From a virus: a stretch of 24,623 nucleotides of DNA. Below, in pieces: positions 11,159 through 17,108 of the stretch. The stretch spans positions 1 to 24,623 of IMG/VR virus record IMGVR_UViG_3300033153_003921; one strand, 5' to 3'. The number at the start of each line of letters is the position of its first letter. The first letter of the stretch is position 1. The notes beneath the pieces were generated by a model that searched no databases, had not been told where the DNA came from, and was given only the letters and a program-made list of their open reading frames with translations. Position numbers and translations under genes: made by a program.

Positions 11159-11530
11159 ATGTCCCTCTCAACGATTGGCTCAATAGCTAATTTTATTCAA
11201 GAGAGTTTTAATAACGTACCCACTGGACTAAGTGGAGCAAACTTAGTCGCAGTAGTAGACATGAATAGACAACATGTAGCAAATTTTACGGGAGAATCAA
11301 TCGGTTCAAATAACATCGATATAGAATTCCAACCACCAATAGTAAATCTTTCTAAGGCTGATACAATTGATTTTGTACAAGGTCAAGCAGGTGGAGAAAA
11401 GTTATCACTCGGAGAATTAAGTGTGGAGGAGTCTGGAGAGGCTCAAAGTTCAGCATTTTGGAGACAATTAGCAGAATCTCAATTGAATGAGATAGGCAGA
11501 ACTACACAATTCACAAGAGTATTAGCTTAA
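11159..11530 (+). CDS. Hypothetical 123-aa structural-region protein
   Basis: It is directly coupled to the 55-aa gene. The middle of the protein is beta-rich (GANLVAVVDMNRQHVANFTG, then NNIDIEFQPPIVNLSKADTI) and the C-terminal third is helical (SAFWRQLAESQLNEIGRTTQ). No membrane segment and no recognised family. Its place among virion genes suggests a tail or head accessory. Confidence 0.5.
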   Translation: MSLSTIGSIANFIQESFNNVPTGLSGANLVAVVDMNRQHVANFTGESIGSNNIDIEFQPPIVNLSKADTIDFVQGQAGGEKLSLGELSVEESGEAQSSAFWRQLAESQLNEIGRTTQFTRVLA

Positions 11531-12966: not shown

Positions 12967-13472
12967 TGGTAGATACAATATTATTAGAATCAGGAGATAA
13001 ATTACTATTAGAATCAGGAAATTATATTTTATTAGAAATTCAAATATATTTACAAAATTTAAGTGATAATATAAATTTCTCAGATAGTTTATCTTCATCG
13101 GCAGAATTTAATAAACTTTTAAGTGATACCCAAACAATCGCAGATAGTCTTAGTCACCAAACAGAATTTAAAGTATTATTAGACGACCTACAATCTATTA
13201 CTGACGACTTATCTAGTCAAGTACAATTCAATGTTAATTTAGATGATAGTATTACTATAACTGACGACCTAACAGAAACACTAGAAACCCTAAAAAGAGT
13301 ATTATCTAAAATATATAAATTAAGACTGATTAAATACAATAAAATCCTAAAAACAGAGGGTGTAAAAAAGTTAGGTCTCATTCCGTACAATAAAATCTTG
13401 AAAACAAATAAACCAATCAAACTAAAAACAGACAAGGGAGGAATAATAAAAATATTACAGTATTCAATATAA
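12966..13472 (+). CDS. Repeat-containing tail-associated protein (168 aa)
   Basis: The N-terminus is TILLESGDKLLLESGNYILL, an internally repeated segment known from phage fibre-region proteins. It is followed by about four degenerate repeats of roughly 20-24 residues with the core L-S/D-D-x-I-x-x-(S/D)-D-x-L (NLSDNINFSDSLSSSAEFN, LLSDTQTIADSLSHQTEF, LLDDLQSITDDLSSQVQF, NLDDSITITDDLTETLE; residues about 33-117). The basic C-terminus repeats the unit YNKILKT twice (about 124-130 and 146-152). The gene is coupled to the fibre gene by TAATG. Its 3' end overlaps the BppU-like gene's noncanonical start. Likely an elongated oligomer on the tail; exact role is unknown. Confidence 0.6.
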   Translation: MVDTILLESGDKLLLESGNYILLEIQIYLQNLSDNINFSDSLSSSAEFNKLLSDTQTIADSLSHQTEFKVLLDDLQSITDDLSSQVQFNVNLDDSITITDDLTETLETLKRVLSKIYKLRLIKYNKILKTEGVKKLGLIPYNKILKTNKPIKLKTDKGGIIKILQYSI

Positions 13473-13801
13473 AACAAAACGATACTAAACCTTATTTGGC
13501 TGTTCAATTACAAGACTCAACCGGTAGTAATATAGATTTAAGTGATACAACTGTTTTTTTTAATTTAGCCACAAACGACAATCAATTTACTAGTGTATTA
13601 AGCGGTGCGTGTGTTATTACTGGTAGTACAACAGGAAACGTAGAATATCGTTGGGTAAGTGGTACAAGCACAGGAATAGACACAAATAGAAGTGGATTAT
13701 ACTTGGGGGAATTTGAAGTTACTTATAATGGTGACAATTCGGTTTTAACATTACCAAGTGACCATTCATTAGTGGTTAAAATAAATAAGGAGTATGACTA
13801 G
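13454..13801 (+). CDS. BppU-like N-terminal-domain protein with apparent AUU start
   Basis: The conserved beginning of this domain, TVFNIKQNDTKPYLAVQLQD, lies upstream of the first standard start (TTG 13496). The frame has no ATG, GTG or TTG between the stop at 13409-13411 and 13496. ATT at 13454 gives (M)TVFNIKQNDT, the expected N-terminus of such baseplate/tail proteins, about 12 bases after GGAGG (13437-13441). From there the protein is 115 residues of alternating strands (NIDLSDTTVFFNLAT, NVEYRWVSG, YLGEFEVTYNG). Alternatives are a -1 slip on A-AAA-A (13448-13452) from the preceding gene, or a sequence error. It is followed by a TAG/GTG overlap with the next gene. A role in the tail tip or neck is inferred. 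Confidence 0.65.
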   Translation: MTVFNIKQNDTKPYLAVQLQDSTGSNIDLSDTTVFFNLATNDNQFTSVLSGACVITGSTTGNVEYRWVSGTSTGIDTNRSGLYLGEFEVTYNGDNSVLTLPSDHSLVVKINKEYD

Positions 13802-14637: not shown

Positions 14638-15075
14638 ATGAAAAGAGACGAGATAGAGTATTCAAGAAAATACTACATTAAAAATAAAGAGAGGATTGAT
14701 AGGCGAAATAAGGAATACTATAAAAACAATAGGGAGAAAATATTATTGCAACAGAAGATAAGGTTTTCCGCCCCAGAACAGAAAAATAGAAAAAGAGAAT
14801 TAGATAACAAAAGACATAGAATAAATAAAGAAATAGTTATTAAAGCCTATGGTGGAAAATGTGTTTGTTGTGGGGAGAGGATTATAGAATTTCTTACAAT
14901 AGACCATCTTGATGGGGGTGGACAGAAACACAGAGAAAGTCTTGGTTCAAAATATAGCTCTGTTCAATTATACAAATGGTTAATAAGGAATGATTTTCCA
15001 GAAAACTTCCAATTATTATGTTTTAATTGTAATATCACTAAGGGTCTGTATGGTGTTTGTCCGCATAATAAATAA
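14638..15075 (+). CDS. HNH endonuclease (free-standing homing-type)
   Basis: This 145-residue nuclease likely mobilises its own gene. Residues 1-60 are highly basic with repeated K/N-rich helices (YYIKNKERIDRRNKEYYKNN, REKILLQQK), typical of DNA-binding N-termini of such enzymes. The core is CVCCGE (75-80), LTIDHLDGGGQKHRE (86-100) with the D-H dyad, and NFQLLCFNCNITKGLYGV (123-140), ending CPHNK: two CxxC/CxxxC-type pairs and the HNH histidines and asparagine are present. It has its own leaderless promoter and lies between two neck genes that appear intact. It is unrelated in detail to the HNH at 7044. Confidence 0.85.
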   Translation: MKRDEIEYSRKYYIKNKERIDRRNKEYYKNNREKILLQQKIRFSAPEQKNRKRELDNKRHRINKEIVIKAYGGKCVCCGERIIEFLTIDHLDGGGQKHRESLGSKYSSVQLYKWLIRNDFPENFQLLCFNCNITKGLYGVCPHNK

Positions 15076-15161: not shown

Positions 15162-15605
15162 ATGGAAAGAAAAACAATAATAGCAGATACACTATCATTT
15201 CTAAAAAATGAACTTAGTGAGAATATTGTAGACCCAATAACCAATAGGGGTACTTCTTCAAAATTTATAATGACAAGCTTTCCGGAGAGAGAAGTAAAAT
15301 ATCCACTAATCACATTAGAAGTCAGTAATTTAGAAGAGTCTCGGGCGGGTATGCAGACAACCGCAATGGACATCGATTTGACGGTTACTTTGAGAATTTG
15401 GAGTAAAAGCGTAGCCCAATCAGATAAATTAGCACAAAACATCTTAGATCACCTTGCAGACATCCAATTCACAAATAGCACCGGTTCGGTAGCAAATGAC
15501 TTTCACGACTTTAATATTGGGAGTGTAATCAGAGTAGACGAACCAGGCAAAGGAGCAACTAAATCAAGAATCATACAATTAAGTTATAGATTCTTCAATA
15601 AATAA
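15162..15605 (+). CDS. Tail terminator / tail-completion protein (147 aa)
   Basis: Tail terminators cap the tail tube and join it to the head. The order helix (TIIADTLSFLKNELSEN), strand (SSKFIMTSFPEREVKYPLIT), strands around TAMDIDLTVTLRIWSKSVAQ, helix (DKLAQNILDHLAD) and final strands (FHDFNIGSVIRVDE, RIIQLSYRF) matches the gpU-like alpha/beta fold. Length is typical. It directly precedes the tail tube gene, which supports the role. The call rests on fold pattern and synteny. Confidence 0.7.
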   Translation: MERKTIIADTLSFLKNELSENIVDPITNRGTSSKFIMTSFPEREVKYPLITLEVSNLEESRAGMQTTAMDIDLTVTLRIWSKSVAQSDKLAQNILDHLADIQFTNSTGSVANDFHDFNIGSVIRVDEPGKGATKSRIIQLSYRFFNK

Positions 15606-15621
15606 TCAAACTAAATAAAAT

Positions 15622-15636
15622 GGAGGTAAAAAAATA
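15622..15636 (+). promoter_or_regulatory. Ribosome-binding site deciding the AUA start
   Basis: GGAGGT at 15622-15627, six A bases, then ATA at 15634-15636. The same GGAGGT motif sits 4-5 bases before the ATG of the 16705 and 20308 genes, so the layout is that of a normal start apart from the third base of the codon. Confidence 0.65.
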
Positions 15637-16644
15637 GCACGACATATTTCAGATTCAAACAAAGTAGTAATATTTCACGAATCAGGTACATACGGAACTC
15701 AAAGTGACGCAGCAGGTTCATCTTTTTGGCCAGGACAAGTAACTGAAAACACAATTGATGATAAAGAAGGAAAGTTAGTAAATACATACTTAGGAACAGC
15801 AAGTCGTAACTTTGGTGACATAGACCAAGGACCACAAGACGTTACTGGTACACTTACAATGCATCCTCAAGATATGAGGTTTGCTTTTTGGGCAATCGGT
15901 TCAGGAGCAGATGGATCAGCAGGAAGCACAGTTAGTCATTTGGTTGAGGAAACATCCACAAGCGCATGGCAAAGTCCATTCACTAGTGGTACAGACAGAC
16001 TTCAAGCACCAATCAGTTTTCAGATAGAAGATTCAAGTCAGAGTCCAGGAACGGGAGCAAACTTTATTAGAACAATCAATGGAGCAGTTGTTGATAGTGT
16101 AACTATCAATGCAGTTCAAGGCGAAAAGGTAAGCATGGATGTTAATTACATCGGACAAAGTTTAACTCATTCATCTGGAGCAACAACAATAACACCAACA
16201 GAAGAATTAAATAGACCATATCTTTGGAGTGATTGTACACTTGAGATTTCGGGGAATACTGTAGAAACAGCAAAAGACATCAGTTTCGAAATAGCAAATA
16301 ATGTAACTGCACCACACTACTTAAACGGTAGCCGAGTAGTTGCAGCACCGTTCCCAGGAAACAAAGAATACACTTTAAATGTGACAGCAGATCTAAGCTC
16401 ACCTTTGGCGGATGTACTTTATACAGATTTATACAAGAATAACGGAGTATTCAATACATCGTTTGACTTAAACGCAGATGTTACAGCAGGTTCTCAACAC
16501 ACAACATTCTTTATGAGTGGTTGTAGGATAATGAGCATGGATGTACCTTCTACTACAGAGGGTCCAGTTGAAGTTACTATGGAAATCAAACCACAAATTG
16601 TAATTGGCTCTGCATTCGACAGAGTACTTTATAAAGCATTTTAA
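15634..16644 (+). CDS. Major tail tube protein with apparent AUA start
   Basis: This protein forms the tail tube. The only standard start in frame that leaves most of the coding sequence is ATG 15859, which would delete 75 conserved-looking residues. Upstream, GGAGGT (15622-15627) is followed six bases later by ATA (15634), giving (M)ARHISDSNKVVIFHESGTYG, a very natural tail-protein N-terminus, then DVTGTLTMHPQDMRFAFWAI (about residues 69-88). The complete protein is 336 residues with many beta strands and YNGSR/NVTADLSS-type tube segments. Alternatives: ATG 15620 with a -1 slip on A-AAA-AAA (15628-15634) immediately before TAG, or a missing A in a seven-A run. A hairpin-like element follows the stop. 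Confidence 0.8.
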   Translation: MARHISDSNKVVIFHESGTYGTQSDAAGSSFWPGQVTENTIDDKEGKLVNTYLGTASRNFGDIDQGPQDVTGTLTMHPQDMRFAFWAIGSGADGSAGSTVSHLVEETSTSAWQSPFTSGTDRLQAPISFQIEDSSQSPGTGANFIRTINGAVVDSVTINAVQGEKVSMDVNYIGQSLTHSSGATTITPTEELNRPYLWSDCTLEISGNTVETAKDISFEIANNVTAPHYLNGSRVVAAPFPGNKEYTLNVTADLSSPLADVLYTDLYKNNGVFNTSFDLNADVTAGSQHTTFFMSGCRIMSMDVPSTTEGPVEVTMEIKPQIVIGSAFDRVLYKAF

Positions 16645-16704: not shown

Positions 16705-16938
16705 ATGAAAACAAAAGAAATTGAAATAAGTGGAAAGACTTATACTGTCAGTGAATTGAAGTATAAGGATGTAGCTGCTGTTGCTGATTTAGAAAAATCA
16801 GAAGTAGCCAGGTCTCTATTAATTAAATCAACTGGAATAACAGATGAAGAATATGATAATCTAAATATGAAAGACGGAATTGATTTAATGAAAGAAGTAA
16901 ATGAATTAAATGGACTTAACACTGAGGATTTTCAGTAG
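16705..16938 (+). CDS. Tail assembly chaperone (gpG-like)
   Basis: This 77-residue protein starts after AAGGAGGT with good spacing. It opens with a short strand module (KEIEISGKTYTVSELKYKDV) followed by helices (AAVADLEKSEVARSLLIKST, ITDEEYDNLNMKDGIDLMKE), the usual form of siphovirus tail chaperones that coat the tape measure. It lies between tail tube and tape measure, exactly where the gpG/gpGT pair belongs. It ends GLNTEDFQ-stop, and the next frame continues without its own start, implying frameshift production of a longer form. Confidence 0.8.
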   Translation: MKTKEIEISGKTYTVSELKYKDVAAVADLEKSEVARSLLIKSTGITDEEYDNLNMKDGIDLMKEVNELNGLNTEDFQ

Positions 16939-17108
16939 GCTATTCTGATAATAAATTAAAGTCAGAGTTAGCCATTTGTGATCATTTTCATTGGACACTT
17001 GATTATTTGAGAAATATTAATTTATCAGATTATTTAGGAGTTATAGCATATATGAGACAATTAGAGAGAGAACATAAGAAAGCCATCAGAAAGAGTAAAA
17101 GGAAATAA
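16926..17108 (+). CDS. Tail chaperone T-part, probably made by -1 frameshift (gpGT-like)
   Basis: In the -1 frame relative to the chaperone, an open stretch runs from 16926 to the TAA at 17106-17108, which overlaps the tape-measure ATG. It encodes SVGYSDNKLKSELAICDHF, then HWTLDYLRNINLSDYLGVIA and YMRQLEREHKKAIRKSKRK, a plausible helical T-domain. There is no ATG/GTG/TTG near its beginning and a TGA at 16923-16925 closes it upstream. Slippage at T-TTT-C (16929-16933), one codon before the TAG of the 0 frame, would join F76 of the chaperone to this S, giving a 134-residue protein, as with lambda gpG/gpGT. Confidence 0.75.
   Translation, partial: GFSVGYSDNKLKSELAICDHFHWTLDYLRNINLSDYLGVIAYMRQLEREHKKAIRKSKRK

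Follow-up and report, generated by a model that had tools for sequence, protein, structure and literature searches.

The gene for the tail tube protein in the phage DNA analysed here opens without a standard start codon, raising the question of where and by what means its translation begins. The DNA, referred to as the window, is IMG/VR record IMGVR_UViG_3300033153_003921 (24,623 bases), and its content is that of a siphophage structural module. The tube frame extends from 15619 to 16644, just past a TAA at 15616–15618, and begins AAT GGA GGT AAA AAA ATA GCA CGA CAT. Its earliest in-frame ATG is located at 15859 (codon 76), and neither GTG nor TTG occurs in the frame upstream of that ATG. The leader before the gene reads GGAGGTAAAAAA-ATA-GCA, and its features are collected in Table 1. 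The initial annotation had described a Shine-Dalgarno (SD) sequence, a run of seven A and an ATA with no in-frame ATG before 15859, and had proposed AUA initiation at 15634; the layout is as described, and the proposal is supported by close relatives that keep ATA or ATC in the same place. On the basis of this comparison a probability of roughly 0.85 is assigned to genuine initiation of the tube gene at AUA 15634, and at AUC in some relatives.

Table 1. Coordinates of the features around the start of the tail tube gene in the window.
Feature	Coordinates	Strand	Remarks
Tail terminator gene, upstream neighbour	15162–15605	+	ATG start; PHROG 176, E 4.8e-4
Mini-ORF ATG GAG GTA AAA AAA TAG (MEVKK, stop)	15620–15637	+	Not conserved
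Shine-Dalgarno sequence GGAGGT	15622–15627	+	GGAGG to start codon, 7 nt
Seven-A run	15628–15634	+	Belongs to the A-rich unstructured spacer; has the form of a −1 slippery heptamer
Putative AUA start codon, tube gene	15634–15636	+	ATA or ATC in every close relative but L005
Tail tube protein gene	15634–16644	+	336 aa; stop TAA 16642–16644

Identity of the gene and its ribosome-binding site

The product belongs to the Phage_tube_2 family, with profile matches spanning most of the protein (Pfam PF18906: E 1.5e-19, 71.1 bits against a cut-off of 27, residues 19–318; PHROG 290: E 1.7e-19). The AlphaFold2 model is mainly beta, with a mean pLDDT of 65, and is weak on the N-terminus, where residues 1–9 score below 50. 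The gene order (terminator, tube, chaperone, tape measure) is also that of Phage_tube_2 tail tube proteins (PF18906/PHROG 290), whereas relatives of this family beyond the clade described below start with AUG (one with GUG) rather than AUA or AUC. Between the tail completion and terminator genes lies an HNH endonuclease gene (PHROG 2255; 14638–15075, + strand), possibly a mobile insertion, and between the tube and tape measure genes lies a tail assembly chaperone pair (16705–16938 and 16926–17108, + strand). The second chaperone frame is −1 relative to the first and has no start of its own near its beginning; the pair resembles a G/G-T programmed frameshift, with the site near GAGGATTTTCAG.

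The duplex formed by the SD of the window with the 16S tail has an energy of −10.7 kcal/mol, against a background mean of −2.6. A strong SD with suitable spacing, as at infC/ccpN-type starts, is present in all seven of the distinct clade sequences having an AUH start (−10.7 to −13.6 kcal/mol). The spacer from GGAGG to the start codon is exactly 7 nt in 7/7 of them, as opposed to 4–6 nt in 14 of the 15 AUG/GUG sequences compared. Folding of the 70 nt around the start averages −1.3 kcal/mol in AUH sequences, where the region is near-unstructured (0 to −2.9 kcal/mol), versus −4.7 kcal/mol in AUG relatives (p 0.0007, a value that ignores relatedness among the sequences). The gap between AUH and AUG sequences in spacer and folding may derive partly from common ancestry; a near-cognate start codon would require this combination of strong SD, good spacing and open RNA. 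SD use is uneven in the window, strong SDs being found in about half of the genes and none at the major capsid gene (9797) or the terminator gene (15162).

The start codon column across relatives

Relatives of the tube gene, gathered from viral contigs, are alignable from codon 2 on. Seven distinct sequences from nine contigs lack ATG at the start column, and instead have ATA in four cases (the window, L001, L004, and L012, which is identical to L013) and ATC in three (L002, identical to L003; L006; L011); the members of both identical pairs come from separate samples. In approximately 25 farther relatives ATG, or GTG in L021, stands immediately or one to two codons before the conserved (M)xRYxSDQNK segment, in most of them with an SD close upstream. 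The initial annotation had suggested examining relatives for eight A or for ATG at 15634, and the outcome favours AUA, ATG being found in the column only in farther relatives. The AUH sequences together with L005, the sole departure from the conserved non-AUG codon, form a single clade in the tree (support 97/99), and the window (ATA) and L002 (ATC) are sisters within it (100/100). The comparison thus shows a clade-wide trait rather than a peculiarity of one genome, with the position of the start and its non-AUG identity conserved through at least two exchanges between ATA and ATC.

The 75 N-terminal residues upstream of the first ATG had been presumed to be conserved, and residues 2–75 are indeed conserved in more than 30 relatives, the non-clade ones having ATG at or adjoining the column of 15634. 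Among the seven sequences codons 2–20 show 18 extra synonymous codon types versus 6 extra amino acids, and this mainly synonymous variation indicates that the frame is translated right from its beginning. In L004, L006, and L011 the stretch from the last upstream stop codon to the start is free of ATG, GTG, TTG, and CTG in every reading frame, and comparison therefore shows no other usable start in them. Relative to the tube start, the stop of the terminator gene occupies each of the three frames in one or another of the seven sequences, which excludes a common read-in from the upstream gene. With neither an alternative start nor read-in, initiation at ATA/ATC is the sole remaining shared route, that is, a near-cognate AUH codon at a conserved start column, as in infC and ccpN. 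ATA and ATC both encode isoleucine and the codon pattern alone would fit an internal isoleucine equally well, a reading disfavoured solely by the lack of an upstream start. Next to the tube gene, the clade's terminator, neck, and chaperone genes have ATG wherever their start can be placed. The pattern AGGAGGTAAAAAAATHGC in unrelated contigs was considered as a set of further starts and rejected, as it represents internal GGKKIA codons.

Alternative readings of the start

The initial annotation had also pointed to a slippery heptamer. In the window the five codons that begin at ATG 15620 are followed by TAG at 15635–15637, and the A_AAA_AAA heptamer is in the register that suits a −1 slip into the tube frame, yielding MEVKKIARH...; an ATG in a slip-connectable frame lies 14–23 nt upstream of the start in the window, L001, L002/L003, and L012/L013. 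As a mechanism shared by the clade, however, the slip from ATG 15620 is already refuted by sequence comparison, and in general it is very improbable. L004, L006, and L011 offer nothing to slip from, having no start in any frame past the last stop, and the mini-ORF is missing in all three. The heptamer itself is absent from L011 (GGTTAAAAAATCG), where an in-frame TAA is located 6 nt upstream of the start (GGAGGTTAAAAAATCGCA). ATG 15620 is overlapped by this SD and lacks one of its own. Known bacterial −1 sites of the dnaX type have an SD approximately 10–14 nt upstream of the heptamer; the gap here is 1 nt, and ATA/ATC lies at a distance from the SD that suits initiation. Although the window resembles programmed −1 frameshifting on A_AAA_AAA/G in having a heptamer registered with an upstream ATG, the clade conserves neither that start nor the heptamer, the SD spacing is wrong for stimulation, and neither a heptamer accessible from a conserved start further upstream nor a stimulatory SD at ∼10–14 nt or downstream structure was found. 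The A7 run is thus probably not used for slippage.

An error of sequencing or assembly, either one A lost, as the initial annotation had considered, or ATG misread as ATA, might be suspected at an A7 homopolymer in a metagenome contig. Its probability is negligible, as a non-ATG codon is common to seven distinct sequences and recurs across separate samples as ATC (L002 and L003) and as ATA (L012 and L013). The same A7 run is found in independent relatives, and an extra A would create no start in L004, L006, or L011. It is likewise scarcely credible that translation begins at ATG 15859 and leaves codons 1–75 untranslated; this codon is the earliest in-frame ATG but is not preceded by an SD, and the conserved residues that it would discard vary mostly by synonymous substitution.

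Proposed decoding, and possible host tolerance and regulation

In initiation at AUA 15634 or its AUC counterparts, a perfect SD, good spacing, and an A-rich, nearly unstructured leader would bring the near-cognate codon into the ribosomal P site, to be decoded there, presumably, by initiator fMet-tRNA pairing with its first two bases only. The product would be (M)ARH..., identical to that of the AUG relatives. In S. aureus, infC, ccpN, and citZ have AUA starts and cvfC1 an AUU start, with extended SDs; the three of these AUA/AUU starts that were tested give ∼10% of AUG output and up to 30% in rich medium, and the non-canonical AUH codon is conserved between species for ccpN and cvfC1 (PMC13009471). 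Initiation at non-canonical start codons is inhibited by IF3 (PMC2268962). By analogy with these findings, fMet-tRNA initiation at the tube gene would be lower than at AUG and sensitive to IF3, and the AUH start would keep output of the tube protein below the level expected from its strong SD. The low efficiency of AUH where measured is an odd fit for an abundant virion protein and counts against initiation at this codon.

The tube gene is like the Staphylococcus genes in its AUH start, strong SD, and appropriate spacer. However, those genes encode cellular regulators, a translation factor, and an enzyme, whereas the tube protein is a phage virion component required in high copy number, and the tube clade appears to use AUC besides AUA, unlike the AUA and AUU of Staphylococcus. 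In E. coli, infC and pcnB, examples cited in PMC13009471 and PMC2268962, have AUU starts and initiation at infC is IF3-sensitive. The tube gene shares with them a near-cognate AUN start but has no visible autoregulatory link, and no genes for IF3 (PF00707) or bS21 were found in eight phage records. A special initiator tRNA encoded by the phage was considered and rejected, since no tRNA gene was found in the window or in the L002 record, of whose 40,490 bases 40,000 were covered. The best terminase relatives (35–49% identity) come mostly from phages of Bacteroidota, although a typical host from that group is at odds with the strong SDs of the window phage; relatives in bacterial genomes, sought in two scans as a host clue, were not found.

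AUH starts were also sought beyond the tube gene. When ORFs of at least 90 codons, 1024 from the loci then under comparison, were scanned mechanically for a strong SD and ATH without an SD-led NTG start, the tube gene of the clade and little else was selected, indicating that this layout is beyond chance. Among starts checked by homology in the phage group, the dereplicated counts are 191 ATG, 7 GTG/TTG, and 10 ATH (10/208 ORFs), seven of the ten being tube genes, versus 92 ATG and no other start (ATH 0/92) in 12 control regions from dairy phages. Fisher p values for group against control are 0.035 with the tube genes and 0.55 without them, and serve as a guide only because related sequences are counted as independent.

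The individual cases outside the tube gene are as follows. At window 13454–13801 (+ strand) the gene has a candidate AUH start, ATT 13454 (ITVFNIKQNDTKPYLAV), where L002, L004, L005, L006, and L012 have ATG; GGGAGG is located 12 nt upstream, and the earliest NTG, TTG 13496, would cost 14 conserved residues. This gene shares 19 nt with the preceding ORF, so that coupling or a −1 shift is also possible. An ATA start at L059:2089, on the contig of L012 (CAGGAGCATAAA ATA GCA TTA GAT), belongs to a homologue of window 11159–11530 and stands in a column that is ATG in six relatives. The GDP-mannose dehydratase/epimerase gene at L071:9249 and L074:1501 (the same contig) has ATA, or one of ATA ATT ATA, against the ATG of L075, and a start at the next NTG would cost the ITGIGGFV nucleotide-binding motif. 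The tail terminator gene at L019:1462 has an apparent ATA start behind GCGAGGT, its position backed by one relative only.

These scattered starts speak for some host tolerance of AUH, which is plausible. They also favour the supposition that AUH initiation is real but non-regulatory, in which case hosts that initiate comparatively well at AUH would let start codons drift in several genes, one fixed instance being the tube clade. This supposition concerns purpose only, overlaps with the preferred explanation, and is a strong contender although short of an even chance. ATH exceeds GTG and TTG together in the group (10 versus 7) and is absent from the dairy phages; however, only three or four non-tube cases occur in ∼200 ORFs, no significant excess over the control. 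Furthermore, members of the tube clade differ at 24–53% of fourfold sites, so that there has been ample opportunity for ATG, one transition from ATA, to return, and yet reversion to ATG via a point change is never observed in the clade. The failed return points to, without proving, selection against an ordinary strong AUG.

The ATG of L005 sits in a different, longer leader, in which a short ORF led by an SD (MEDNKIENVC, stop) overlaps the tube start. Grouping of the AUH sequences without L005 is weakly rejected by the DNA tree (AU p 0.034), and L005 is therefore probably nested among them. An SD-led short ORF upstream of a tube ATG is seen at L005:1735–1790, L017:2940–3010, and L018:2960–3000; that of L017 (MENNMINNG, stop) overlaps the tube start as in L005, and that of L018 (MNKHK, stop) ends just upstream of the tube ATG. 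These short ORFs are possibly a second means of limiting tube translation. The L017 leader and the AUH leaders have GGAGGTAAAAAAATA in common, and one may thus derive from the other by deletion or insertion, in either direction.

The AUH start may tune the tube supply, or it may simply be a sign of a permissive host. It is proposed, tentatively and with more doubt than confidence, that the lineage keeps the tube gene under selection against AUG and that the identity of the start controls virion assembly; AUA/AUC, or in L005 an AUG within an overlapping upstream ORF, would then throttle or time tube synthesis via initiation fidelity, e.g., through host IF3. It may equally be that AUH serves rather freely for initiation in the hosts, so that selection disfavours the trait only mildly.

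The part of the literature that was searched yielded no previous description of a phage virion gene with an AUA or AUC start, and a conserved start at the "wrong" codon for a major structural protein of a virus is a rare case. In practice, ATG, GTG, and TTG are the only starts recognised by gene finders, a habit by which 75 conserved residues would be lost from the structural protein of this clade and other genes would be mis-started. If the AUH start limits tube synthesis, it would represent a new and easily tested means by which a phage sets the dose of a virion part, and a natural reporter of initiation fidelity (IF3) in uncultivated hosts.
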